From Lentisphaerota bacterium (GTDB lineage: Bacteria > Verrucomicrobiota > Kiritimatiellia > RFP12 > UBA1067): 64,000 nucleotides of DNA. The DNA lies in the NCBI GenBank assembly GCA_015061665.1, contig SUWC01000007.1:1-64000 (forward strand), given 5' to 3'. This document shows, piece after piece, positions 52,672-64,000 of this stretch. The notes beneath the pieces were generated by a model, which had not been told where the DNA came from, ran no database searches, and saw only the letters and a list, made by a program, of their open reading frames with translations. Made by a program: the position numbers and the translations under genes. Numbering within the stretch: the first letter of the stretch is position 1; each line of letters starts with the position of its first letter.

Positions 52672-52760
52672 TTTAGACAGGATTTACAGGATTGACAGGA
52701 TTTTCGGACAATTCCCTCTGCTATTCTTAATCTTGTTAATCATGTTAATCCTGTCTAAAA
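52672..52760. repeat. Inverted pair of dispersed ACAGGATT-type repeats
   Basis: TTTTAGACAGGATTTACAGG (52669 onward) and AATCATGTTAATCCTGTCTAAAA (ending 52760) are inverted copies around a short spacer. The right arm carries the stop codon and last residues (FRQD) of the O-antigen-ligase-like gene. The ACAGGATTWACAGGATT motif is widespread as an intergenic repeat in several bacterial phyla. Confidence 0.75.
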
Positions 52761-53983
52761 GAACATTCGGCAACGACAACGGCGTTTGTCGGCGGGTCGA
52801 AGAATTCGGTCGGAGAGACGAGCGTCAGCCTCGCCGAGGGGAACCGCCATGCAGACTCAGCCGCGTCGCCGAAAAGCCACACCTCGCCATCGTCTTCCGC
52901 GTCCGCGGGAACTCCAGGCCTTATGCAGAACCGCGCGCCATTCGGAAAACGTTTCGCCACCGACTTGAGACTCCATCCCTCGTCACGGTAGACGCACAAC
53001 CTGGTAGGGACGGCGTTCCATCGCCGTCCGCCAACCACATACTCCCCCTCCACCCTCGGCGTCACATCCGACCACACCCCAACCACCGCCGCACAAAGAG
53101 CAACCGCCACACCTGCAACCGTCAACACACGCCTCCGAACTCCACCAAGTCCAAAACTCTCTGCGCCCTCTGCCTCTCCGCATCTCTGCGTGAAACATCT
53201 TCTGCCCCACGCCGCCATCATCGCCAATCCCATCCCAACAAACGTGGCAAACAGCACCCACGCCAAAACAAAGTTAACCGCTCCATATCCGCCCATCTCC
53301 TTAAAGTCAAACAGTACATGCCAATCAAATACGGACGCCGAGAACGCCGAGACCGCGAGTCCCGCAAATGCAACCCACGTACGCCGCATTCTCCAGCCGA
53401 CACAAAGCGCCAGCGCGATGAACGCAAGCCACGCGCCCCCGACAAACGCGCCCATTTCGGCAAGCAGCGTCAGATGCGAGTTGACGAGCGTCCGCACCGT
53501 AATTCCGTCCGGCAGCATGAACGCAGACGCGATTTCGCCGGAGTTTCCAAATCCAACCCCAAGCGGGTTCGCCGCAAACAGCTTCAGACCCGCAAGCCAT
53601 ATCCTCGGCCTGTTCATCACCGCCCCGTCCAGCGCCAGCCTCGGCCACATCCACCATGCGGCAACCGCAAGCACAGCCAACGCGACCGACAGGGTAGGGA
53701 CGGCGTTCCATCGCCGTCCGCGCACGCTGGTGGGGTGCGCTGACCCCAGCGCGCCGCGCCACCACAACACCGCCGCCTCAATTACCAACACTACAAATCC
53801 TGTTCGCGAATACGTCATCGCGAGCATCACGCAAAGCGCGATGCCGATAAGCCGCCCTGCCCACCGCCACTTGCCGCACCATCCCCAGCAGAATGGAAAC
53901 AACGCGCAGATTGCAGCGGCGGCATGGTTGGGGTTCGCAAAGCCGAACGACCACCGCACCATCTCGTCGGACATGTATTCCAT
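52745..53983 (-). CDS. O-antigen-ligase/Wzy-like membrane protein
   Basis: A 412-residue protein with about eight transmembrane segments and the O-antigen-ligase family pattern (FGFANPNHAAAAICALFPF, TYSRTGFVVL, then a periplasmic loop with NPLGVGFGNSGE and NSHLTLLAEMG). Such enzymes attach or polymerise glycans at the outer face of the inner membrane. The usual leading helices seem absent, as the protein starts only 12 residues before the GFANPNH block. Three in-frame repeat insertions are visible: GRRWNAVPT twice and CFTQRCGEAEGAES, and the stop codon lies in another repeat. An extended -10 (TGGTAGAAT) lies 21 nt upstream. Confidence 0.72.
   Translation of the reverse strand: MEYMSDEMVRWSFGFANPNHAAAAICALFPFCWGWCGKWRWAGRLIGIALCVMLAMTYSRTGFVVLVIEAAVLWWRGALGSAHPTSVRGRRWNAVPTLSVALAVLAVAAWWMWPRLALDGAVMNRPRIWLAGLKLFAANPLGVGFGNSGEIASAFMLPDGITVRTLVNSHLTLLAEMGAFVGGAWLAFIALALCVGWRMRRTWVAFAGLAVSAFSASVFDWHVLFDFKEMGGYGAVNFVLAWVLFATFVGMGLAMMAAWGRRCFTQRCGEAEGAESFGLGGVRRRVLTVAGVAVALCAAVVGVWSDVTPRVEGEYVVGGRRWNAVPTRLCVYRDEGWSLKSVAKRFPNGARFCIRPGVPADAEDDGEVWLFGDAAESAWRFPSARLTLVSPTEFFDPPTNAVVVAECSFRQD
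53003..53032. repeat. Short palindromic repeat in coding sequence (copy 1)
   Basis: GGTAGGGACGGCGTTCCATCGCCGTCCGCC, with GGACGGCG/CGCCGTCC as stem; in frame it encodes GGRRWNAVPT near the C-terminus of the O-antigen-ligase-like protein. Confidence 0.8.
53693..53721. repeat. Short palindromic repeat in coding sequence (copy 2)
   Basis: The same GGTAGGGACGGCGTTCCATCGCCGTCCG element in the same gene and reading frame, 690 nt away, encoding GRRWNAVPT in a loop between two membrane segments. Confidence 0.8.
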
Positions 53984-54165: not shown

Positions 54166-55044
54166 TCACAACCCTCCCAACAAGTCACGATTCCAAGCAT
54201 CGCCCTTGATCGGAATGAAACATTGCTTCAAAGCATCTTTGAATTTAATTGACACCCTTAGGCCAAAGCCCAAAGATGAACTGTCATATGGTTCAGATGC
54301 ACAAGACTCCACAATTGTACTATCAGTTGTTGCCCACTCAAAATGCTCTACCTTCTTAGAGGCAAATCCCATCTTCCCCGAGATAGAGCATGAACACTTA
54401 AGGACGCCTGCCATGGTATACCTTGAACACAACAAAGCATATCTACCAGAATCGTCTGCATATAACGCAGCAATATAAACATCTCTTTCTTTCCCGCTAC
54501 CCACATAGGATATGCTCTTTATGACTTGAGGCAACCGTTTATAGATCGTCGGGCAAACAACGGGACGAAAACAGCCAACGCGCATTCCAACACCGTCAAT
54601 AAGGTCATTATTAATCGGTATTTTCACCAATAACCCTTGCTTTTCGGAAGCATTACAGACCAATGTGCGCCCCAAGTTAGGGACCTCGGACACTTCTAGA
54701 TTGAATCCGTTGTTAGCATAGCGCAACGAGGGAAATTGGACGGAATGCCATATCCCCGTCATGCAATTGTTATTTAAGTAGTAGCTGGTTCCCTCTCTTT
54801 CCAAAACATACATGTAATTTGTCAGACCATCATCCTTATCGGCTTGCCATGGATGAACAACGATTTTTAATGCATCACCACAGTAAACCTTCCCCGTTTG
54901 GATGGATGCCGACTTACATTTTAGTATTTCCCCGCACGGATCTATAATTGCATCAACAGCCAATCTACAGCCAGTGTCTGAAGAACGTGTAGCTACGCAA
55001 CCTGTGACTAGCAACAATGATGCCCAAACGAATCTCAGTTTCAT
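54166..55044 (-). CDS. Lipoprotein, putative immunity protein for RHS gene D
   Basis: A 292-residue lipoprotein (signal MKLRFVWASLLLVTGCVAT with lipobox VTGC) of unknown family. It has many cysteines (GCRLAVDAIIDPCGEILKCKS, SCSISGKMG) and lower GC than the RHS core. It begins 9 nt after the stop of the RHS gene and reads in the same direction. In polymorphic-toxin loci the gene after the toxin tip is normally its immunity gene, and a periplasm-facing lipoprotein fits a toxin acting in or through the envelope. The assignment is from position only. Confidence 0.6.
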   Translation of the reverse strand: MKLRFVWASLLLVTGCVATRSSDTGCRLAVDAIIDPCGEILKCKSASIQTGKVYCGDALKIVVHPWQADKDDGLTNYMYVLEREGTSYYLNNNCMTGIWHSVQFPSLRYANNGFNLEVSEVPNLGRTLVCNASEKQGLLVKIPINNDLIDGVGMRVGCFRPVVCPTIYKRLPQVIKSISYVGSGKERDVYIAALYADDSGRYALLCSRYTMAGVLKCSCSISGKMGFASKKVEHFEWATTDSTIVESCASEPYDSSSLGFGLRVSIKFKDALKQCFIPIKGDAWNRDLLGGL

Positions 55045-55053
55045 CTAACACCT

Positions 55054-57588
55054 CTATTCTAGATATACCGTTTTGTTTTTTACAGTTGTCGATGTGTCTG
55101 CCAACAACAGAATCCTGTCCTGAACCCTCCAACTTTTTCTTGTGCAGCCCTCCAACAATGTAATCGCGTCCGCGATTGTGGCGGCTGCCCCTAGTTCAGG
55201 AATAGCCGTTACCAATGCCGACACGGCAACAATTGTAGAACCATTTTTCTGGTGCTTGAGCAAAGTCGACATGGCCGTATCTTTGGTAATGGTCAACTCA
55301 AAACTAATCTCGTGCCATTCTTCTCTAATAGTCGTTTCCGTATCTATACGGTAAGGGTGACCAGAGCCTATTGGGATGTAAATCGTATTTCCCGTTTCTG
55401 TTGTTGTATCTGACCTGATAAATCTTGAGACTACTTCCTTGTCGTCATCATTGAGAACGATAGTTCCATCAAGAAGCAAGTCCAAAACAATGTCCTTATA
55501 CGGAGGAACTATCTCATGATAACCCTTCTCGGCCACTCCAATTCCAACAGATGGTATAGGACCGTTGTCAGACATAATAGCAGTTGGATTACCTACCTTT
55601 GCGCCCCACAGATCCACTGCGCTCGTCACGCCGTTGTTGCAATATACCAGCTGGTTCCACCCATCCGGATAGCCCATGGGATCGGCGGACTGCCACTTCG
55701 CGAGGCCGGCGCGGTAGTTGCGCATTAGGAAGGAATGGCCGAGGCCTTCGACGAACGGTTTACCCGTGAAAAAGTTGGAGTTTTGAGTTGGAGAGTGGAC
55801 GGTTAAGTCTTCGCCGAAGGCGGTGAGCGCGGCGGCGGAGTACTTGCCGCCCTGCTTGGAGCCGACCGTGGTTCCAAGCGCATCGTTGAAGTACGAGGTG
55901 CCCTTCGAGGACGCGACCGGGTTGCCGCCTCCAATATGAGGCTCGTTCACGAACTGTTCGTCGCCGCGCTGGATGAGCGCGAGGCCGTCCCACTGGAAAG
56001 TTTCGGTGTCGGACGCGACAAGCGCGTCCCTCCCCGGACGAGACGAGCTCGTCCCTACCGTCGCGGAGGCAAGCTGGCCGTCGGCGTGGTAGGTGAAGGT
56101 GCGGGTCGTGTCGCCGTCGGTGACAGACATCACCTTGTCGAGGTAACCGTAGCGGTAGGTCTTGCTGCCCTCGCGGACGAGACGGCCTGCGGCGTCGTAT
56201 GCGTAGCGCGTCGTCACGCCGTCGGTCGTGGAGCTGACGAGCTGGTTCGCAGAGTCGAACGCGAAGGTGGTCGTGATGTAATCATCGGATTGCGGCGTGC
56301 GCGGGGCGCCCGCCCTACCGCTGCGGAGGATTTGCTTCTTGAGCATGTTGCCCGCCTTGTCGTAGACGTAGCGCTCAACCGCGTTGCCGTCGGAATCCTT
56401 GACCGCGAGAAGCTGCCCCTTCCTGTCGTACTCGTACGTCTGGCGGACGCCATTGGCAGTGCGCGCGACGACGCGGCCGGACTTCGAGTACTCGTATTCG
56501 ACCGAGGACTCGGGGTTGACCCTGCCGCCCAGGTACTTGCCCGCGAGCAGTCCACGCTTCGTGTAGGAGAAGTCTATGGGCGTTCCGTTCACCGTCTGCC
56601 TCGACACGCGCCCCGCCTTGTCGTAGCGGTACGAGACCGTCATGCCGTCCGCCTTCGTCTCCGAAAGACGCCCGAACTTGTCGTAGGCGCGGCTCTCGGA
56701 CGAGACGACCGTCCCCTTCCTGTCGCGTGTCGTGCGCGCGGTGCGGTTGCCCCATGCATCGTAGGAGTAGCGCGTGGAAAGGCCGTACTCCTTCCTCTCG
56801 GTGAGGCGTCCGAAGTGGTCGTAGGAGCACGTCTCCTTCGTCCTGCCGCGCGTGTGGACCGAAAGGCGACCCCACTTGTCGTAGGCGAACGTCTCGTCCT
56901 CGCCGCCGTCGTACTCGACGCGGACCGGACGGCGGAATTCGTCGTACTCCGTGCGGATGTGCCTGTCCTCGCTATCATTCCATTTGGACACGACCTCCTT
57001 GATGAGTCCGAGGTCATCGCGGACATAGTCCGTGAGCTGTCCTGCGGCGGTCGTGCGTGACTCAAGCCCGAAGCGTCCCCAGCCGAATCTAATCTCGTGT
57101 CCGTTCTCGTCGATCACGGACGTTCTGCGGCCAAGCGCATCATACGAATAAGCGCATTCCGAACCGTCGGGGAACTTCTCCGTCAAAACCTTGCCGAAGG
57201 CGTCGCGCTCGAACGACTTCGTGAGCCCGTCCTGGTCGGTGTATGCAACGGGACGTCCCATTCCATCGTATGAAACGTCAAGAGACGAGACGACATCGCC
57301 TTCGAAAAGGCGTTCCATGCGGGTCACGAGCCCCGCGTCGTTATAGTCGTACTTCGTCGTCATGCCGTCTGCGTCCGTCACGCTGACGGGCGTATGGAAA
57401 TCAATATAGCAAATCTTGGTGGCGTTGCCTATGGGGTCTTTGACCAAAACCGGGAATCCTGAGCGATTGTACGCGATCTCCGTAGCGCCGCGCCCGTCGT
57501 CCACGGACGTGACATCGCCGTGCCTGTCGCGGATTATGCGCGTCGCAAGCGCCGTTGTGCCGTCGGCGTTGAGGAGCGAAACAGCCAC
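55054..57588 (-). CDS. RHS-repeat polymorphic toxin (RHS-D)
   Basis: An 844-residue protein of YD/RHS repeats (RYSYDAWGNRTARTT, YRYDKAGRVSRQ, YEYDRKGQLLAV) ending in the core GYPDGWNQLVYCNNGVTSAVDLWGA, where the shell closes and the variable tip begins. The tip (about 180 residues) has no recognised domain but contains a hydrophobic stretch TIVAVSALVTAIPELGAA. Repeat-derived inserts occur at fixed core points: SGRAGAPRT, SSRPGRDALVAS and SPTQNSN. A signal peptide lies upstream in another frame, so the 5' end may be damaged or start further back in-frame (TVEPVASFGYAKGREP). A lipoprotein gene follows. Confidence 0.85.
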   Translation of the reverse strand: MAVSLLNADGTTALATRIIRDRHGDVTSVDDGRGATEIAYNRSGFPVLVKDPIGNATKICYIDFHTPVSVTDADGMTTKYDYNDAGLVTRMERLFEGDVVSSLDVSYDGMGRPVAYTDQDGLTKSFERDAFGKVLTEKFPDGSECAYSYDALGRRTSVIDENGHEIRFGWGRFGLESRTTAAGQLTDYVRDDLGLIKEVVSKWNDSEDRHIRTEYDEFRRPVRVEYDGGEDETFAYDKWGRLSVHTRGRTKETCSYDHFGRLTERKEYGLSTRYSYDAWGNRTARTTRDRKGTVVSSESRAYDKFGRLSETKADGMTVSYRYDKAGRVSRQTVNGTPIDFSYTKRGLLAGKYLGGRVNPESSVEYEYSKSGRVVARTANGVRQTYEYDRKGQLLAVKDSDGNAVERYVYDKAGNMLKKQILRSGRAGAPRTPQSDDYITTTFAFDSANQLVSSTTDGVTTRYAYDAAGRLVREGSKTYRYGYLDKVMSVTDGDTTRTFTYHADGQLASATVGTSSSRPGRDALVASDTETFQWDGLALIQRGDEQFVNEPHIGGGNPVASSKGTSYFNDALGTTVGSKQGGKYSAAALTAFGEDLTVHSPTQNSNFFTGKPFVEGLGHSFLMRNYRAGLAKWQSADPMGYPDGWNQLVYCNNGVTSAVDLWGAKVGNPTAIMSDNGPIPSVGIGVAEKGYHEIVPPYKDIVLDLLLDGTIVLNDDDKEVVSRFIRSDTTTETGNTIYIPIGSGHPYRIDTETTIREEWHEISFELTITKDTAMSTLLKHQKNGSTIVAVSALVTAIPELGAAATIADAITLLEGCTRKSWRVQDRILLLADTSTTVKNKTVYLE

Positions 57589-57755
57589 GGGCTCGCGTCC
57601 CTTAGCGTAGCCGAACGAGGCGACTGGCTCGACTGTCCGCTCGCCGCACGCCCTGCGCGAAGCCTTCGCGAAGTGAAGTCGACGCGCTCGGCGGCGACGG
57701 AAGCAAAACCCGCTAATGCGGCGAGTAGGAATGCTGCGATTGTCTTCGTTTTCAT
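57589..57755 (-). pseudogene. Signal-peptide start out of frame with RHS-D
   Basis: An ATG at 57755 encodes a good signal peptide, MKTKTIAAFLLAALAGFASVAAERVDF, but its frame differs from that of RHS-D and reads into it as an Arg/Ser-rich shadow. The RHS frame itself stays open upstream of 57588 with plausible protein (CGERTVEPVASFGYAKGRE). An internal deletion or a frameshift near the palindromic TTCGCGAAGGCTTCGCG would explain the mismatch. A sequencing error is the alternative. Confidence 0.55.
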
Positions 57756-57794
57756 TACGATAGTTAACTTTATAAACGGTTAGGTTCGTATGGT

Positions 57795-58820
57795 TCAGAC
57801 CGTCCAGTTTGTTTCGTTTGACTCAAAGTTTTCAAGCTGCAGTGCATAGAAGGTCTTGGACGCACGCTTCTTAATCGACTCGTGAATTCTATCAAATGGC
57901 CAATAGTACCGAACTTGATAGGGCGCCTCGCCAAACGGATGATGGCGAGACTTCTCAATTGCCGCAAAATCGACATCGTCCGCCGAGACGATATCTTTAA
58001 ACTTCAGCCCGCGGCCAGAGGCCTTATTCATCATCCAAGCAAGCGAAATACGGCTCATGCCCTTGTCGTCGGCATAGCCACCGCCGACCTCAGAATGCAC
58101 TCCCGAGAACCACACCTGTTCTATACCATCTTCCGGCAAATAGTGCATTACCGGAAAGAAACGGCGTCGCTCGTCTGCGGCCATTGCGTGGTAGATGCGT
58201 TCTACCAAAGGCGACTTTAAGCCATTGAAAAAACCTCGATACCTGTCATTCTGCGAAGAAACGACATCCCATAGCCCCATCATAGCAATACTCGGAGAAT
58301 CATCAACACGATCTACCTGGAGACCATCAAGCCGATCAGCATCTTTTCGCATGAAAGCATCGACAATGCCATCTGAATCCGAAAGCAATTTCGCGACGCC
58401 CGCCCGATAGAGCAGCCAACTGAAAACATGGCAGATGTACGCCCCTCTGCTAAAGCCGAACAAGTAGATCTTGATCTTCACTCCCGCACGCCGACAAATA
58501 TTGTAGGCCTTCACCAGCTCGCGATATCCTTCCTTGACTGGCTGGTCTAGATCTGCCGCGAAGAGTCCGCCTTTCAACATATTGCCCTTAGCGGTTCCAG
58601 GACCCTCGACGTAAACCTCGTAAGTCAGTTCCGTATCGCCACTATCGTCTTTAAACGGCTCATCGGCACACAATGCGTCATGGAGTTTGAGGACATTAGT
58701 ACCCTCCTCGTTATCCTCGGTGTCTGGATTCTCCGTATTCCACGTTCCGTCGAAGCAAATCACGAGATTGCAGACGGAGACTCCATTTAGCATGCCCTTT
58801 AATCTTTTGACATTACCCAT
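57795..58820 (-). CDS. DUF2235 alpha/beta-hydrolase, Tle1-like phospholipase effector candidate
   Basis: A 341-residue protein without signal peptide. The DUF2235 motifs are LVICFDGTWN at the start, the nucleophile elbow LFGFSRGAYICH, the Asp region MGLWDVVSS and the His block WFSGVHSEVGGGY. Members such as Tle1 are antibacterial phospholipases delivered into other cells; others are fused to or neighbour RHS proteins. A lipoprotein gene of matching type precedes it in the same unit, 12 nt apart, as expected for an effector and its periplasmic immunity protein. Function in interbacterial killing is inferred from family and neighbourhood. Confidence 0.85.
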   Translation of the reverse strand: MGNVKRLKGMLNGVSVCNLVICFDGTWNTENPDTEDNEEGTNVLKLHDALCADEPFKDDSGDTELTYEVYVEGPGTAKGNMLKGGLFAADLDQPVKEGYRELVKAYNICRRAGVKIKIYLFGFSRGAYICHVFSWLLYRAGVAKLLSDSDGIVDAFMRKDADRLDGLQVDRVDDSPSIAMMGLWDVVSSQNDRYRGFFNGLKSPLVERIYHAMAADERRRFFPVMHYLPEDGIEQVWFSGVHSEVGGGYADDKGMSRISLAWMMNKASGRGLKFKDIVSADDVDFAAIEKSRHHPFGEAPYQVRYYWPFDRIHESIKKRASKTFYALQLENFESNETNWTV

Positions 58821-58832
58821 CGTTACACCTCC

Positions 58833-59159
58833 CTACTTTTCAAGCCACCAGGTGACATACACTGGGGTTCGAAAACCCAAACACGAGATTCCCATTAGGA
58901 CCTGACTCCACGTCTGAGTGCATGTCACACGCCAAAGCCCGCGCTCCTCAATTTCGGAATTTGCGTCGGACTGTAATTGTTCGTCAAGGACTTGTTGCGG
59001 ACTTTTATTCCACCAGTTTCCTGTGTACGTGTTCTGGAAATACTCATCCGATTTCTTTGAATGCACCAACTTGGTTGCCGAACTCTGCAAGTCAACCGAT
59101 ACGCACCCAGCGAAAAGCATGAATACGGCAACTACAGACACTTTGGTTATCTTATGCAT
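58833..59159 (-). CDS. Small lipoprotein, putative immunity partner of the DUF2235 protein
   Basis: A 108-residue lipoprotein starting at 59159 (AGGAG five nt upstream); the track start at 59201 adds a poor N-terminus. The signal is MHKITKVSVVAVFMLFAGC with lipobox FAGC. The mature part is hydrophilic with W-rich spots (TYTGNWWNKSPQQVLDEQL) and ends VYVTWWLEK. No family recognised. Immunity proteins for Tle phospholipases are often periplasmic lipoproteins, which motivates the suggestion. Confidence 0.6.
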   Translation of the reverse strand: MHKITKVSVVAVFMLFAGCVSVDLQSSATKLVHSKKSDEYFQNTYTGNWWNKSPQQVLDEQLQSDANSEIEERGLWRVTCTQTWSQVLMGISCLGFRTPVYVTWWLEK

Positions 59160-59213
59160 TGTAACTCCTTGTTTATCATAGCTTATGCAGACCATCTGCA
59201 AAGATGTATTTAT

Positions 59214-59245
59214 ATGATATCAAATCCCTGGTGTTCTGTGTCAAA
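59214..59245 (-). promoter_or_regulatory. Probable promoter of the DUF2235 unit
   Basis: Minus-strand TTGACA (59240-59245) with AT-rich -10-like sequence around 59214-59222 (TGATATCATA). The exact -10 is ambiguous because spacers of 17 to 20 nt are possible. Confidence 0.45.
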
Positions 59246-59332
59246 CTATTTGTTTACAATTTCGTAAAGTTGGCAGAGTGAAAAATTAAGAAGAAATTAT
59301 TTTCAAATCATCTTGAAATCATTTTCGTTTGA

Positions 59333-59338
59333 TACAAT
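59333..59338 (+). promoter_or_regulatory. -10 element of a leaderless winged-helix gene
   Basis: TACAAT ends 7 nt before the ATG at 59346 in a strongly AT-rich leader and there is no Shine-Dalgarno sequence. Confidence 0.5.
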
Positions 59339-59345
59339 ACTAAGC

Positions 59346-59672
59346 ATGAAAACTTCTAAACGGCAAGAGCATAAATTGAAATGCATCGTCATCGGCGATC
59401 TTGAGTACGACCCTCAGCATCAGTGTCTGCTGCATGACGGGCTATTGGCTAATTTGACGCTCTGCGAATCGAAGATTGTCGCCTATCTGTTCAGCAACGA
59501 TCGCCGTAACGTTTCCGCACACGAGCTGCTGAGCTTTGCACTCGGATGCAAACCACAACAAAAGACTACAGCCGCCGAAAGACACATCTGCTCCGTCAGA
59601 AAGAAGATCGCAGCAATCGGTGCGACAACGACAATCAGGACTATCCGCAATCAAGGATATGTAATCAAATAA
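59346..59672 (+). CDS. Stand-alone winged-helix (OmpR C-terminal type) regulator
   Basis: A 108-residue protein starting at 59346; the only rightward gene in the toxin locus. Its whole length matches the trans_reg_C winged helix: DLEYDPQHQCLLHDGLLANLTLCESKIVAYLFSN, then a recognition helix in AAERHICSVRKKIAAIG and the wing TIRTIRNQGYVIK. There is no receiver domain, so it may act as an unmodulated DNA binder or with a partner. Low GC and its place divergent from the DUF2235 unit suggest it controls the toxin genes. Confidence 0.78.
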   Translation: MKTSKRQEHKLKCIVIGDLEYDPQHQCLLHDGLLANLTLCESKIVAYLFSNDRRNVSAHELLSFALGCKPQQKTTAAERHICSVRKKIAAIGATTTIRTIRNQGYVIK

Positions 59673-59987
59673 ACATTTGAGCCGCCTCTCCATCTCGCGC
59701 TGAACGGGAGATGGGCGCGGATCGCGGCAGCAGCATGGTCAGTTCTCTAAAATCGAAGCCTTGCAGAACAAGATCGACATAAAGAAACCTCTATATGCCA
59801 ACTTTCTGCCGCACTTAATGACCTCCCAAATCGACTCTGCGATCAAAAAGCCTTCGCCCTGCTCCTACAGTTCCTCTCGAACCCTCTCATTTTCGACACG
59901 TACTCCTTTTCCTCGCGATTTAACTCCATAGGCCATAAGTCAAGTTGCCACTGTCGTTCCCACGCCACCATGCATCTCACTCCAGAA
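59673..59987. other. Intergenic region, no gene seen
   Basis: About 315 nt without a credible ORF on either strand. A weak inverted repeat (CATCTCGCGCTGAACGGGAGATG, about 59691) could end the rightward transcript. The rest looks like decayed sequence. Confidence 0.45.
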
Positions 59988-60530
59988 TCATTTAACTAGA
60001 TCATCGCGCTTAAGTACTGCCGTCATTCTTTCCACATCACAGATGCTTTCCGCAACACCTTTTGCACGTAGATAGGTTTGCATCTTGAGAACGTCGGCTT
60101 TGTTCGTTCCTGAAGCCACAGCAACTGCCAGATTGGCGTATGTGACATAAAACCAAGATTCGCCTTCAGGCACACTCATCTCGACCTTCTTGACCCACGA
60201 TTTCATCGCAAAATCTTTGCTGCCATACATTCGCTCAACAGTCCAATTATGGTCATCGATTTCATTACCAATACATCCGCATATCAGGTAGCATAAACTA
60301 CCGCGCCCAGGTGTAGAATCCACAAGATCATAATGGTGAACCAACTTTCGTGCGTCTTCGATCGAACCCCGATAGACCATTGCTTCAAAAGCCTCCGCGT
60401 ATTCTTTCCCTCTCAAGATGCACTCCACGGCACAACTATATGGTCGATTCGCATTAGCCACTTTACGCCAAACAAACAACGATAACACCGCAACCGCTGC
60501 GACGACAAGGCTTATAGTCATTAATCTCAT
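59988..60530 (-). CDS. Single-pass membrane protein, putative immunity protein for orphan RHS tip C
   Basis: A 180-residue protein with an N-terminal transmembrane helix (MTISLVVAAVAVLSLFVW) and a helical domain (ILRGKEYAEAFEAMVYRGSIEDARKLVHHY; VSGTNKADVLKMQTYLRAKGV). No family recognised. It starts 5 nt after the stop of the orphan RHS tip, in the same direction, and has lower GC than the RHS core. Role as immunity protein is inferred from that position. Confidence 0.6.
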   Translation of the reverse strand: MRLMTISLVVAAVAVLSLFVWRKVANANRPYSCAVECILRGKEYAEAFEAMVYRGSIEDARKLVHHYDLVDSTPGRGSLCYLICGCIGNEIDDHNWTVERMYGSKDFAMKSWVKKVEMSVPEGESWFYVTYANLAVAVASGTNKADVLKMQTYLRAKGVAESICDVERMTAVLKRDDLVK

Positions 60531-60535
60531 AATTA

Positions 60536-61216
60536 TTACTCCGGCATGAATTCAATAAAATTTCCAGGACGAGATTTATCCGGCTCCATCCTACCGTTAT
60601 TCAGCACATGAAACCACCAACTCCACGTCCTTTCCACGACAAAATACCAAACAATGGAATCTGCAGCATACACAGACACTCCAAGGATGTTTGCTAAACC
60701 TTGGCAAAAGACTGCTGAATCACTTCCTGTATAACACGACAACAGTTTGATGGGGCCGGTGCCATTCCATCCGTCTGGATACCCCATTGGATCGGCGGTC
60801 TGCCACTTGGCAAGGCCCGCGCGATAGTTGCGCATCCAGAAGGCATGGCCGAGGCCCTCGACGTAGGGCTTGCCAGTGAAGAATGGGGAATGGGGAACGG
60901 GGAATGGGGAACGGGAAGATTCGCCTGACGAGTTGACGGATAAATCTTCTCCAAACGCAGTGAGTGCTGCGGCGGAGTATTTGCCGTTGGACTTGGAGCC
61001 GACGGTCGTGCCGAGCATGTCGTTGAAGTAAGAGGTGCCCTTAGATGAGGCGACTGGGTTACCTCCTCCAACATGAGGCTCGTTCATGAACTGCTCGTCG
61101 CCGCGCTGGATGAGCGCAAGACCGTCCCATGCAAATGATTCGCGGACAAACTGTCCGTTGCAACTGGACGTTATAGCCCTCAGCATTCCGTCTGTGTAGC
61201 AGATAGACAAAATCAC
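60536..61216 (-). CDS. Orphan RHS C-terminal module (tip C)
   Basis: A 226-residue ORF beginning at a GTG that overlaps the preceding gene by 4 nt. It holds only the last 120 residues of an RHS core, beginning AWDGLALIQRGDEQFMNEP and ending ADPMGYPDGWNG, followed by its own tip: IKLLSCYTGSDSAVFCQGLANILGVSVYA, a Cys-containing pattern that resembles LxSCxTG...AQxLAxxLGVxVxA tips of other RHS and WXG toxins, whose domain name I cannot confirm. A G-rich repeat insert (SRSPFPVPHSPF) sits before FFTGKP. Without an N-terminal shell it cannot be delivered alone and probably serves as a donor for recombination with a full RHS gene. Confidence 0.7.
   Translation of the reverse strand: MILSICYTDGMLRAITSSCNGQFVRESFAWDGLALIQRGDEQFMNEPHVGGGNPVASSKGTSYFNDMLGTTVGSKSNGKYSAAALTAFGEDLSVNSSGESSRSPFPVPHSPFFTGKPYVEGLGHAFWMRNYRAGLAKWQTADPMGYPDGWNGTGPIKLLSCYTGSDSAVFCQGLANILGVSVYAADSIVWYFVVERTWSWWFHVLNNGRMEPDKSRPGNFIEFMPE
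60881..60918. repeat. G-rich short tandem repeat in orphan RHS tip C
   Basis: GAATGGGGAATGGGGAACGG and continuing units encode SPFPVPHSPF on the minus strand, at the same core position where other RHS copies carry different inserts. Confidence 0.75.
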
Positions 61217-61554
61217 CTTACCCTGTCCTGCATATACTTCTCAAGTGCTTCTATGTCCGTTGCCCATTCTGTCCAAAAGTATGAGAAATCCTCACTGTCG
61301 GCACCCCTGCTGATACTGTGCCGCTTCTCATAGGCATCAGACAGAAAACGCCTCATTAGATCGTCATCTCCCGTGTCGTAGGCCTTCTTTGATAATTCGA
61401 TAAAAAATACCAGGGCTCTCGACCGGCCTTCAAGGATCGAATTGTTTAGCCATTTATCATTAAGAGCCTTTTCACTACAAGCACCTAGAATAAACATCAG
61501 TACCGCTAGAGCTGGCACTATCCAACCATACCACAATTGTTTTCTTACTATCAT
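61213..61554 (-). CDS. Small lipoprotein, putative immunity protein for RHS fragment B
   Basis: A 113-residue lipoprotein starting at 61554 (GAGGAG eight nt upstream), signal WIVPALAVLMFILGAC with lipobox LGAC. The mature domain is helical and acidic (SRALVFFIELSKKAYDTGDDDLMRRFLSDAYEKRHS). It lies 16 nt after the end of an RHS fragment, with which it is co-oriented, and its stop overlaps the next RHS module. Immunity role inferred from position. Confidence 0.55.
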   Translation of the reverse strand: MIVRKQLWYGWIVPALAVLMFILGACSEKALNDKWLNNSILEGRSRALVFFIELSKKAYDTGDDDLMRRFLSDAYEKRHSISRGADSEDFSYFWTEWATDIEALEKYMQDRVR

Positions 61555-61570
61555 CGCATTCACTCCTCTA

Positions 61571-61806
61571 TTACGTGGTCCACCCATTGTCCTCTAGATT
61601 TTTCATCCAAATATCCGATATCGAGCTGCCGCCGTGCCATCCAAAGACCAATCCTATAACCGACAGCCCAGTGAAGAAGTTGGAGTTTTGAGTTGGAGTT
61701 GGAGAGTGGACGGTTAAGTCTTCTCCAAACGCAGTGAGCGCGGCGGCGGAGTATTTGCCATCCTTCTTCGCGCCGACGGTCGTGCCCAGCGCGTCGTTGA
61801 AGACAA
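61571..61806 (-). pseudogene. Truncated RHS fragment (tip B)
   Basis: Only the core piece FNDALGTTVGAKKDGKYSAAALTAFGEDLTVHSP is left, followed by a repeat insert (TPTQNSN), FFTG and then a 31-residue tip starting LSVIGLVFGWHGGSS. The whole KPFVEGLGH...MGYPDGWNQ segment is deleted. Upstream, the ORF 61571-61945 runs into repeat-like sequence (MNNLKYNRRTT), so no real start exists. Confidence 0.7.
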
Positions 61807-62045
61807 GGTTCTCGTCGGTAGTTGTTGAAAACAACCGAAACAACTTCGAGGACAACCTGAGAGAGGACGGCTCGCAACCGCGGGCCGATATCCGCCGCGC
61901 AGGTTGGCGCGGCGTCGTTCTTCTGTTGTATTTCAAGTTGTTCATGTTGTTTTCAGTGCACTGAAATTATTGGAGACTATTATATCAAATATAGTCGGTG
62001 CATGACTCGGTCGAATTCGAAATTCGAACAAGCCGCACGCTGCGA

Positions 62046-62166
62046 GCGCGCCGCCCCATCCCCAGCAGAACGGGGACAGCGCGCAGATAGCGGCGGCGGT
62101 GTGGTTGGGGTTCGCAAAACCGAATGCATGGCAAACCCAGCCGCCAGAAGTAAACTCTAACATCAA
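62046..62166 (-). pseudogene. Fragment of the O-antigen-ligase-like gene
   Basis: The minus strand encodes GFANPNHTAAAICALSPFCWGWG, nearly identical to GFANPNHAAAAICALFPFCWGWC of the complete gene at 52745-53983, and then diverges. Only about 25 codons are preserved. The fragment lies after an RHS gene and its immunity genes, as the complete copy does, which suggests block duplication. Confidence 0.7.
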
Positions 62167-62202
62167 ATTATCTGTACGGTTGAGGCTTCAGGGGTCAGAC
62201 AT

Positions 62203-62541
62203 CTATTCACGTTCTGCTATCTTTAACCTTAGTACCTTCGATGACATTGCATTTGCATCAACCAGGAACCGTATCTCACCATCCGTCCCTAGCCAATAAG
62301 GTTCGATTTTAAATATAAAACACCCTTGACGATCGGTACTCTCCACTTTCTTAAATCCATGCAAAAATGAGTTTTTGCCATACTGGGCATCTATGGCACT
62401 TTCGCACCTTGCAAACGCTCTGCAAAAACAGGACTCCTCGTTGGAAGAGGCAAAATATGCTAGTTGCACCAATTGTGCGCTTGCAAAGCCTCCTATCAAA
62501 GCAGCTACGCCCACACATATTATCCTAAACTGGATTTTCAT
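62203..62541 (-). CDS. Exported small protein, second putative immunity gene for RHS-A
   Basis: A 112-residue protein starting at 62541 with GAGGTG upstream; the N-terminus IICVGVAALIGGFASAQ is a signal or anchor. The core AIDAQYGKNSFLHGFKKVESTDRQGCF aligns by eye with the neighbouring gene (AFDASYGTGAFQKGLWRILKDGESAFY), so the two are tandem paralogues. Function unknown; immunity is inferred from the adjoining RHS gene. Confidence 0.58.
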   Translation of the reverse strand: MKIQFRIICVGVAALIGGFASAQLVQLAYFASSNEESCFCRAFARCESAIDAQYGKNSFLHGFKKVESTDRQGCFIFKIEPYWLGTDGEIRFLVDANAMSSKVLRLKIAERE

Positions 62542-62558
62542 AAAACAGCACCTCATTT

Positions 62559-62903
62559 TTACTGGCTTATAATTTTCACCTTGGCGTCCGAATCCGTCAT
62601 ATCGATGTTTACCAGCACCTCTTTAACGGAATCGCCTTCATGAACTGCAACTTGACATGCGTAAAATGCCGATTCGCCATCCTTTAGAATCCGCCAGAGC
62701 CCTTTTTGAAAAGCTCCAGTTCCATAGCTTGCGTCAAAAGCTTTCATCGCATGACAAACTGCCTCCGACAATTCAGTTTCATCCTGAATTTTCCATCGTG
62801 GCAGTCCCAACATGGCACATCCAGCGGCAACACCAAGAAAATAACAGCACACGAAAGACGACAAGAGTATTACACCTGCATTTTGCATAGCAAGCTTGTT
62901 CAT
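62559..62903 (-). CDS. Membrane-anchored small protein, putative immunity gene for RHS-A
   Basis: A 114-residue protein with an N-terminal hydrophobic segment (GVILLSSFVCCYFLGVAAGC) and a small alpha/beta domain (HAMKAFDASYGTGAFQKGLWRI; VKEVLVNIDMTDSDAKVKII). Its ATG overlaps the RHS-A stop by 4 nt, the coupling expected for toxin and immunity protein. The tip of RHS-A is rich in Gly/Ala hydrophobic helices, so an inner-membrane-located immunity protein would suit a pore-forming toxin. Confidence 0.62.
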   Translation of the reverse strand: MNKLAMQNAGVILLSSFVCCYFLGVAAGCAMLGLPRWKIQDETELSEAVCHAMKAFDASYGTGAFQKGLWRILKDGESAFYACQVAVHEGDSVKEVLVNIDMTDSDAKVKIISQ

Positions 62904-64000
62904 TCTGCGACCCTCCGAACCTTGTAGGATTTCCTTTGGACTGCGGGGTCAATGTACGCCCTCATATAACAGTCAGCACCTGCAACCAAATTATTATTTT
63001 GGCTAAGGTTTGACCCGACATCTATCCCAAGCCCCGCAAAAGCGCCAGCAACACTCGCCCAAGTCAACACGGCGGACGCTCCTCCTGTGACCACAATGGA
63101 AGCTACTGCAATCGCAGCACCGATTACAGCTGCTGCCACCCCTGCTGCCTTCAATGCTTTCTCCAAAGCAGATGACTCAAGAACATAAACATCATATACG
63201 TCGTTCCATGTTTTCAACATCCACAAATAGTCAAAGCCATCTTCACCGGAAAACCAATTGCCGCATTTTGTCTCAGTGACATTTGCCTCACCAGTTTTTA
63301 CCTTAATTGTCAGTGCACCGCACAAATCCACCGCACCCATTACCCCATTCCCGCAATACGCAAGCTGGTTCCAGCCGTCGGGATAGCCCATGGGATCGGC
63401 GGACTGCCACTTGGCGAGGCCAGCGCGGTAATTGCGCATGAGGAAGGCGTGGCCGAGGCCTTCGACGAACGGTTTACCCGTGAAAAACGGGGAATGGGGA
63501 ACGAGGAATGGGGAATGGGAAGAGTCTTCGGAAATGTCTTCCCCAAAGGCCGTGAGTGCCGCGGCGGAATACTTGCCGCCATGCTTGGAGCCGACGGTCG
63601 TGCCGAGCGCGTCGTTGAAATAAGACGTGCCCTTCGATGACGCGACCGGGTTGCCGCCTCCGACGTGCGGCTCGTTGATGAACTGCTCGTCGCCGCGCTG
63701 GATGAGGGCGAGGCCGTCCCAGAGGAAGGTTTCGGTTTGCGGCGCGGTGCGGGGCGCCCGGTGGTCGCCCCCTACCGTCGCTGACGCGAGCTGGCCGTCG
63801 GCGTGGTAGGTGAAGGTGCGCGTCGTGTCGCCGTCTGTTACGGAGAGAACCTTGTCGAGGTAACCGTAGCGGTATGTCTTGGAACCCTCCTTGACGAGAC
63901 GGCCCGCCGCGTCGTAGGCATAGCGCGTCATCACGCCGTCGGTCGTGGACGAGACGAGCTGGTTCGCGTCGTCGAAGGTGAAGGTCGTCGTGAGGTAATT
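62900..64000 (-). CDS. RHS polymorphic toxin, C-terminal part (RHS-A, runs off the window)
   Basis: The frame is open from the stop at 62900 to the window edge (about 367 codons visible), beginning with LTTTFTFDDANQLVSSTTDGVMT. The RHS core follows the same sequence as RHS-D (TRYAYDAAGRLVKEGSKTYRYGYLDKVLS; GYPDGWNQLAYCGNGVMGAVDLCGA) and then diverges into a tip of about 130 residues with long Gly/Ala-rich hydrophobic segments (AAAVIGAAIAVASIVVTGG; WASVAGAFAGLGI), suggesting a membrane-active toxin. Repeat inserts are GDHRAPRTAP and SSHSPFLVPHSPF. The track lists only 344 residues from an internal ATG. Confidence 0.85.
   Translation of the reverse strand, partial: NYLTTTFTFDDANQLVSSTTDGVMTRYAYDAAGRLVKEGSKTYRYGYLDKVLSVTDGDTTRTFTYHADGQLASATVGGDHRAPRTAPQTETFLWDGLALIQRGDEQFINEPHVGGGNPVASSKGTSYFNDALGTTVGSKHGGKYSAAALTAFGEDISEDSSHSPFLVPHSPFFTGKPFVEGLGHAFLMRNYRAGLAKWQSADPMGYPDGWNQLAYCGNGVMGAVDLCGALTIKVKTGEANVTETKCGNWFSGEDGFDYLWMLKTWNDVYDVYVLESSALEKALKAAGVAAAVIGAAIAVASIVVTGGASAVLTWASVAGAFAGLGIDVGSNLSQNNNLVAGADCYMRAYIDPAVQRKSYKVRRVAE
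63487..63524. repeat. G-rich short tandem repeat in RHS-A
   Basis: ACGGGGAATGGGGAACGAGG and continuing units encode SHSPFLVPHSPF on the minus strand, at the same place as the repeat inserts in the other RHS copies. Confidence 0.75.

Follow-up and report, generated by a model that had tools for sequence, protein, structure and literature searches.

A locus in which one long Rhs gene is followed by shorter Rhs fragments, each with its own tip and a small neighbouring gene, raises the question of whether the fragments are a reserve of toxin tips or the remains of toxins that have been replaced. The window, which is the whole stretch of 64,000 nucleotides that was analysed, is part of contig 174 of a metagenome-assembled genome (G000; 3.44 Mb, 177 contigs, 92% complete), whose nearest named relatives are rumen and gut assemblies of Kiritimatiellae or "Lentisphaerae". 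The contig extends 5.7 kb beyond the window, and the full RHS-A gene is readable there. The comparison set contained a single assembled genome per species and zero isolates, with genes called by simple ORF rules, and exchange is therefore seen between species only.

The leftward array of RHS genes, tips and putative immunity genes described in the original prediction is real, and all of its genes lie where they had been placed. The order, read leftward, is RHS-A with tip A, two immunity-type genes (A1 and A2), a copy of the 5' end of a ligase-like gene, a palindrome, orphan B with a lipoprotein gene, orphan C with a membrane-protein gene, a regulator gene on the plus strand, a lipoprotein/Tle1 pair, RHS-D with a lipoprotein gene, and the genes of the ligase-like protein, an esterase, a response regulator and a histidine kinase. 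Immunity-type genes are so called from their position alone. The presence of one complete Rhs gene beside worn older ones with intact-looking protective genes indicates that tips were swapped over time while the antidotes were kept. We are fairly confident that this is an Rhs polymorphic-toxin locus of Kiritimatiellota, seen at one point in a series of cassette replacements, with the old toxins eroding and the immunity genes remaining open.

The complete Rhs gene and its worn neighbours

66601–62900, minus strand (3' third, 62900–64000, in the window): RHS-A, 1233 residues, complete, with RHS_repeat and Rhs_assc_core matches
62903–63310, minus strand: tip A, 136 residues, with a strongly hydrophobic Ala/Gly/Val segment and the C-terminus VAE
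62559–62903, minus strand: immunity-type gene A1, with a signal or membrane segment and a 4-nt overlap with the RHS-A stop
62203–62556, minus strand: immunity-type gene A2, of the A1 family
61825–61954, minus strand: palindromic repeat, 130 bp, predicted fold −55.7 kcal/mol, gives the orphan B frame its start codon
61571–61945, minus strand: orphan B, a short core fragment and tip stub, frameshifted
61213–61554, minus strand: immunity-type gene B, lipoprotein, open, 113 residues
60536–61216, minus strand: orphan C, a core fragment (homology about 60765–61144) and the second half of a tip domain
59988–60530, minus strand: immunity-type gene C, membrane-anchored, open, 180 residues
55054–57755, minus strand: RHS-D, signal-peptide start retained, 1126 nt lost after about nucleotide 86, frameshifted
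57265–57570 in D and 64985–65290 in A, minus strand: A/D conversion tract, 97–100% identical
55057–55593, minus strand: tip D, 179 residues, C-terminus YLE, apparently complete
54166–55044, minus strand: immunity-type gene D, lipoprotein, 292 residues

RHS-A had been predicted to run beyond the window, and the gene indeed reaches contig position 66601. Its product begins with a Sec-type signal peptide (MKTKTIAAFLLAALASFASVAAERV), the hydrophobic stretch of which ends SVAAERV, and continues through RHS repeats and an Rhs-associated core into the tip. The protein start, including the AAERVDF junction, is conserved in G057, G016, G003 and other relatives. The RHS homology is far above chance (Pfam RHS_repeat, E = 7.8e-51; Rhs_assc_core, E = 4.1e-08 and 6.3e-08), and the core matches the solved Rhs protein 7q97 (E = 2.9e-26) as well as the Rhs cage 8cp6. 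The evidence for a cage shell is homology to solved Rhs cages only; an AlphaFold model of a full-length Rhs relative, calculated from a six-sequence alignment, had a mean pLDDT of 42.5 and was set aside. The long hydrophobic segment of tip A could insert in membranes. A1 is related to a gene in G094 and to an A1/A2-like pair in G065 that has no preceding tip. Upstream of RHS-A, past the window on contig 174 (L011, 16757–19500), there is a divergent operon of three genes without a Pfam match. Relatives of these genes were found near an Rhs gene in several other species, and the operon could encode a partner of the Rhs protein.

RHS-D, with an open frame from 57588, is not an intact gene. Its real start, at 57755, encodes the same signal peptide as that of RHS-A, and the deletion joint fuses gene nucleotide 86 to the equivalent of RHS-A nucleotide 1212, at a short GC-rich stretch found at both points. 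Because the 1126 lost nucleotides are not divisible by three, the frame is broken, and what remains is a GTG frame (57588–55054) without an export signal. Nor is the core "nearly constant", as had been proposed. A and D are 81.7% identical in DNA overall, in a mosaic of 63–100%, with a fall to 57–70% mid-core and a rise to 97–100% over about 300 nt, and D is about as distant from A as the copies of other species are. Within the conversion tract, A is only 71–78% identical to other species, and outside it A and G016 are 91–92% identical. We read the tract as probable gene conversion between A and D, and the mosaic as a likely product of recombination between these copies and with other lineages. 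The dN to other species is 0.15–0.18 for RHS-D versus 0.11–0.14 for RHS-A at similar dS, and omega is 0.19–0.28 in pairs that include D, compared with 0.10–0.18, indicative of purifying selection, among the other RHS cores. The raised dN of RHS-D, taken from pairwise values and not from a formal test, is consistent with relaxed constraint.

The RHS fragment predicted as orphan B is present, but its frame is not intact. The annotated frame (61571–61945) terminates wrongly in GWTT, whereas a second frame ends in DHVIEE, as family tips do, so that the core fragment (about 85–150 nt, 81–85% identity) lies in a different frame from the tip stub. Orphan C does contain tip sequence, but not a whole tip. 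It shows similarity (phmmer E = 2.9e-05) to the tip carried by a full-length Rhs in G040. Compared with that relative, its sequence passes directly from the motif DGW of the core into mid-domain, so that about 85 residues of core tail and tip are missing, including an HG motif. A caspase-like identity was considered for tip C and set aside as only a lead, as the AlphaFold model of the tip-C family had a pLDDT of 49.6 and a Foldseek search against the PDB gave zero matches at E ≤ 0.001. The genes 3' of both orphans are open, and their products look exported. The pattern recurs in G052, where a 52-residue tip stub precedes an open gene whose 304-residue product has related immunity genes in G081 and G095, and in G065 with its tipless A1/A2-like pair.

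The palindrome (termini GAAAACAAC..GTTGTTTTC) marks the 5' edge of orphan Rhs fragments. It was found in the window, at L068 168–317, and in G019 contig 282, G052 contig 133 and G042 contig 116, the last copy being isolated, without RHS. It may be a small repeat of mobile or REP-like type. For the leader of orphan B, coding for protein was rejected given pN close to pS, the long-palindrome fold and the lone copy in G042. At the end of another contig of the same genome (L068, contig 165, 3–317), the palindrome accompanies an additional orphan Rhs fragment, the core of which resembles that of orphan C.

The orphans had been interpreted as stored tips, which would recombine into RHS-A to give a new full-length toxin. 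Recombination of an orphan into the main rhs gene was shown for Salmonella Typhimurium LT2 (Koskiniemi et al. 2014, PMC3967940), which provides a precedent, and the conversion tract demonstrates that copies recombine here as well. Tip D looks complete, and orphans with apparently complete tips are present in G016, G012 and G065, where they may be stored tips. In the window, storage holds at best for D; B is frameshifted and a mere tip stub, C is short of about half its tip domain, and neither encodes a complete tip. The brief core of B is also a poor substrate for homologous recombination. We regard a reserve of working tips as doubtful. With the tips of B and C incomplete and their immunity-type genes intact, kept immunity fits better than storage, and the orphan immunity genes may defend against relatives in which those tips persist.

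A fixed site with cassette replacement between species

52745–53983, minus strand: O-antigen-ligase-like gene marking the fixed insertion site; weak Wzy_C match (E = 7e-05), under the curated cut-off
62050–62160, minus strand: ligase 5' copy (scar), first 37 codons, separating the RHS-A cassette from the older fragments

Nearly all relatives whose available sequence is long enough have the Rhs locus directly upstream of the ligase-like gene and the esterase gene. The same locus carries different tips in the related genomes G016, G042 and G052, which are collinear at 86–93% as far as the core end, lose all similarity for 1.6–3.1 kb, and are collinear again at 91–92% from the start of the ligase or its fragment. 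The proposed exchange of tip/immunity cassettes between Rhs genes is supported by a cross-species break in homology that runs exactly from the core end to the ligase start. It is further upheld by the co-variation of tip and immunity families and by the occurrence of an orphan tip family on a full-length Rhs gene elsewhere.

Orphans B and C lie downstream of the ligase 5' copy, a feature that the original prediction had missed. In G016, G042 and G052, the ligase fragment is joined directly to the 3' end of a histidine kinase gene (YGGKVSLSS..), and the scar is therefore the remnant of a whole ligase–esterase–regulator–kinase block. The block is intact between two full Rhs genes in G040. The states found across genomes suggest the order of duplication, deletion to a scar, and cassette replacement. 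In L053, L054, L056 and L051, the scar and the intact ligase gene are separated by a gene for a 122-residue protein, which is conserved at 100% identity (45% for G040).

It could be argued that one ancestral Rhs gene was simply duplicated in tandem on the spot and that the copies then diverged, without transfer between lineages, since the tandem copies share one site and the ligase–kinase scars imply that a larger unit was duplicated. However, the cores of A and D differ by 18% in DNA, while the esterase, regulator and kinase genes of G000 and G057 are 95.8% identical, and the segment-wise core comparison with its conversion tract already speaks against A and D as constant sisters. The tips are unrelated rather than diverged. 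The scar in G000 resembles the ligase of G057 and G019 (90–91%) more than its own (87%), over a short stretch of 75–84 nt, which points to arrival from outside. Purely local duplication is accordingly unlikely, and cassette replacement at a fixed site remains the preferred reading.

The segment between orphan C and RHS-D contains the lipoprotein/Tle1 pair, the regulator gene and elements of the ancestral RHS promoter:

57795–58820, minus strand: Tle1-type (DUF2235) alpha/beta hydrolase, PF09994 (E = 1.1e-41), GFSRG motif
58833–59201, minus strand: lipoprotein gene of the lipoprotein/Tle1 pair, inserted with the hydrolase
59294–59325, minus strand: three AAAT-ATTT-type repeats at 11-bp spacing, before the ancestral RHS promoter
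59313–59672, plus strand: divergent winged-helix regulator, Trans_reg_C (E = 3.5e-10)

The DUF2235 gene had been counted as a component of the array. The pair to which it belongs separates the RHS-D start and −10 element from the −35 element of the ancestral RHS-D promoter, the region of which (59236–59339) is 97% identical to the promoter region of G057. Related pairs unlinked to this Rhs family are present in G000 contig 151, G019, G052 and G011; the one on contig 151 (L091) is the second such pair in the genome of the window. With related pairs away from Rhs and the promoter split, the pair is treated as an insertion. That it is instead a genuine part of the Rhs system, such as a phospholipase that is delivered together with an immunity protein for the producer, is very unlikely. 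In its favour, the pair shares an operon with RHS-D, and the toxin domains that have been catalogued as RHS-linked include DUF2235 (Tox-AB hydrolase1, PMC3482391). Against it, the pair occurs away from this Rhs family, it divides the promoter, its lipoprotein gene precedes Tle1 in the order opposite to every tip/immunity pair of the locus, and a T6SS sheath gene was not found in the genome.

The winged-helix regulator gene is 97% identical in DNA to the G057 copy, which adjoins the G057 RHS gene. The AAAT-ATTT-type repeats are also found upstream of RHS-A (L011, 16723–16743), and the copies in G040, G021, G042, G016 and G052 have another promoter with GTATAC repeats instead. The layout, a lone gene of an OmpR-type DNA-binding domain beside repeats spaced by 11 bp, suggests that the regulator may control the Rhs promoter.

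Tips, immunity-type proteins and export

For the variable ends, the comparison covered 31 tips and 32 proteins encoded downstream of them. The four tips of the window have no detectable similarity to one another, as predicted. Across the family, 29 complete tips form about 22 groups (E < 1e-3) after one conserved core tail, ADPMGYPDGWN..VDL.G, and the classical DPxGL motif of the core end is replaced by VDLxG in this Kiritimatiellota family. Related tips have related neighbours in four pairs (G081b/G095, G040a/G052, G021/G094 and the G016 orphan/G057), whereas tip C and G040b are related and their neighbours are not. The tips had zero matches to curated families in Pfam or NCBIfam or to PDB sequences, and PADLOC also gave zero matches. 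Inspection by eye gave hints of peptidase-like motifs, HExxH in G081 and G090 and SHGC in G016.

Two rules hold across the family. All 29 complete tips, defined as longer than 60 residues and with a stop codon, end in Glu (in the window, codons 62903–62905 and 55057–55059), and the only tip that does not is a 15-residue frameshifted remnant in G034. The background is 15 of 140 genes (11%), and one of seven in other RHS families of G000 and neighbouring genomes. Both tips of G081 end in Glu, as predicted beforehand, and both are homologues of tips already in the set. The residue last but two is mostly hydrophobic. The rule also identifies the genuine frame of a tip remnant, as it did for orphan B. 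A Shine–Dalgarno origin of the Glu codon was rejected on inspection by eye, as both GAA and GAG are used and the next gene is up to 208 bp away. Periplasmic tail-specific proteases prefer non-polar C-termini, and candidate roles of the terminal Glu are a shield from these proteases, a packing contact in the cage, or a contact with a hypothetical exporter.

The second rule concerns the neighbours. In line with the prediction, the product of the gene next to each of the four tips in the window has a lipobox, a signal peptide or a membrane segment; the immunity role of these genes is assigned by position. An N-terminal hydrophobic segment (threshold, mean hydropathy 1.3 over 19 residues) is present in 31 of the 32 proteins, compared with 44% of control genes of similar length; the single protein under the threshold (MKKVLIGLMVFMEAF..) is borderline. 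The binomial value for this rule is about 1e-10 and serves only as a guide, because the sequences are non-independent. In G065 (L103, 6968–9965), the lipoprotein encoded 3' of the Rhs gene is a paralogue of the tip of that Rhs (phmmer E = 2.2e-52), which would be unusual for an immunity protein. Both rules appear to be new family-wide features; a literature search, which is not proof of absence, found no paper on Kiritimatiellota Rhs or on a C-terminal Glu in Rhs.

It is improbable that these Rhs proteins serve at the cell surface or in adhesion and that their variable ends are not toxins, as the zero matches to curated toxin families and the tip-like lipoprotein of G065 might suggest, since the core is homologous to solved Rhs toxin cages, tip and neighbour are replaced together, and some tips show motifs that hint at a peptidase-like nature.

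The original prediction left open how the toxins leave the cell. RHS-A, the one complete Rhs gene of the locus, encodes a Sec-type signal peptide. A search of the genome (92% complete) did not find VipB/TssC, with a positive E. coli control, or any phage-type or contractile sheath. For T9SS, the Por secretion tail and SprA were not found, in searches in which SprA had no positive control and the tail control was sub-threshold. The envelope character of 31 of 32 immunity-position proteins together with the Glu rule suggests envelope-acting, Sec-exported toxins.

Based on these observations, we propose how the locus may work. The Rhs protein would leave the cytoplasm via Sec, its tip would act in the envelope of neighbouring rivals, and the exported immunity proteins would protect the producer and its kin; the signal peptides, the absence of a detected T6SS or phage-type sheath and the immunity rule make this the most likely mechanism. 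RHS-A would carry the current tip with its two immunity genes. Older tip/immunity modules would be pushed downstream by duplication and recombination, probably favoured by sequence shared within the Rhs core and within the ligase-like gene at the end of each cassette, after which the toxin halves would erode while the immunity genes remain open. The fixed site, the scars, the replacement of cassettes between species, the A/D conversion tract and the truncation of B, C and D can be read directly from the DNA. The tips are probably toxins acting in the rival envelope, and their neighbours probably protect against them. We speculate, as a tentative possibility, that the family is a separate delivery class for outer-membrane bacteria, Sec-exported and acting only in the rival envelope, with the obligatory Glu as a signal for recognition, packing or protease protection.

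Comparison with known systems

Rhs tip exchange is known mostly from enterobacteria with T6SS, and the same process is now seen in the mostly uncultured Kiritimatiellota of rumen and gut. The ligase and kinase scars and the conversion tract are a physical record of the arrival and decay of cassettes. The Glu and envelope-immunity rules, if functional, would offer a handle on how one carrier serves unrelated toxins, an open question for polymorphic toxins, and both are cheap to test.

The locus has the RHS/YD repeats, the Rhs-associated core and the variable tip after a conserved core end of Rhs/YD-repeat toxins. As in the C-terminal displacement of enterobacterial rhs (Jackson et al. 2009, PMC2935791), a constant core carries exchangeable, unrelated tips, dissociated core–tip fragments form an array 3' of one complete gene, and the core fragments vary in length, with exchange limited to one core clade. 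The attached and dissociated cores at one enterobacterial locus were reported to be identical (PMC2935791), whereas neighbouring cores here are only 82% identical. The present locus also differs in its phylum, in the Sec-type signal peptide, in the Glu that ends every tip, in cassettes that all close on the start of the ligase-like gene, and in scars showing that the duplicated unit included four downstream genes.

The orphan modules of CDI and Rhs systems (Poole et al. 2011, PMC3150448; PMC3967940) likewise consist of tips without a start or export signal, each with an immunity-type gene, and have tips that occur on full-length genes elsewhere; duplication followed by recombination was proposed for them. 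In contrast, two of the three orphan tips here are damaged with their immunity genes open, and the immunity-position proteins, known from sequence alone, are nearly all exported or membrane-bound.

WapA-type Rhs toxins of Gram-positive bacteria are Sec-exported, and their immunity proteins are usually described as cytoplasmic. The Sec signal peptide is shared with the present family, whereas the host here has an outer membrane and the immunity proteins are predicted to reside in the envelope.

Tse5 (PMC10684867) is a pore-forming Rhs toxin delivered by T6SS. The cage homology (8cp6) is common to both, and the hydrophobic segment of tip A could likewise insert in membranes, but no similarity of tip sequence was found and no T6SS sheath was detected here. 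In contrast to T6SS-delivered Rhs effectors, RHS-A has a signal peptide, and VipB/TssC was not found in the genome (92% complete). The DUF2235 hydrolase has a catalytic domain like that of Tle1 T6SS phospholipases.

The general behaviour of the locus is covered by displacement (PMC2935791), orphan modules (PMC3150448) and orphan recombination (PMC3967940). What differs from these systems is the host group, the export signal, the ligase scar that closes the cassettes, the two damaged orphans and the two family-wide rules.
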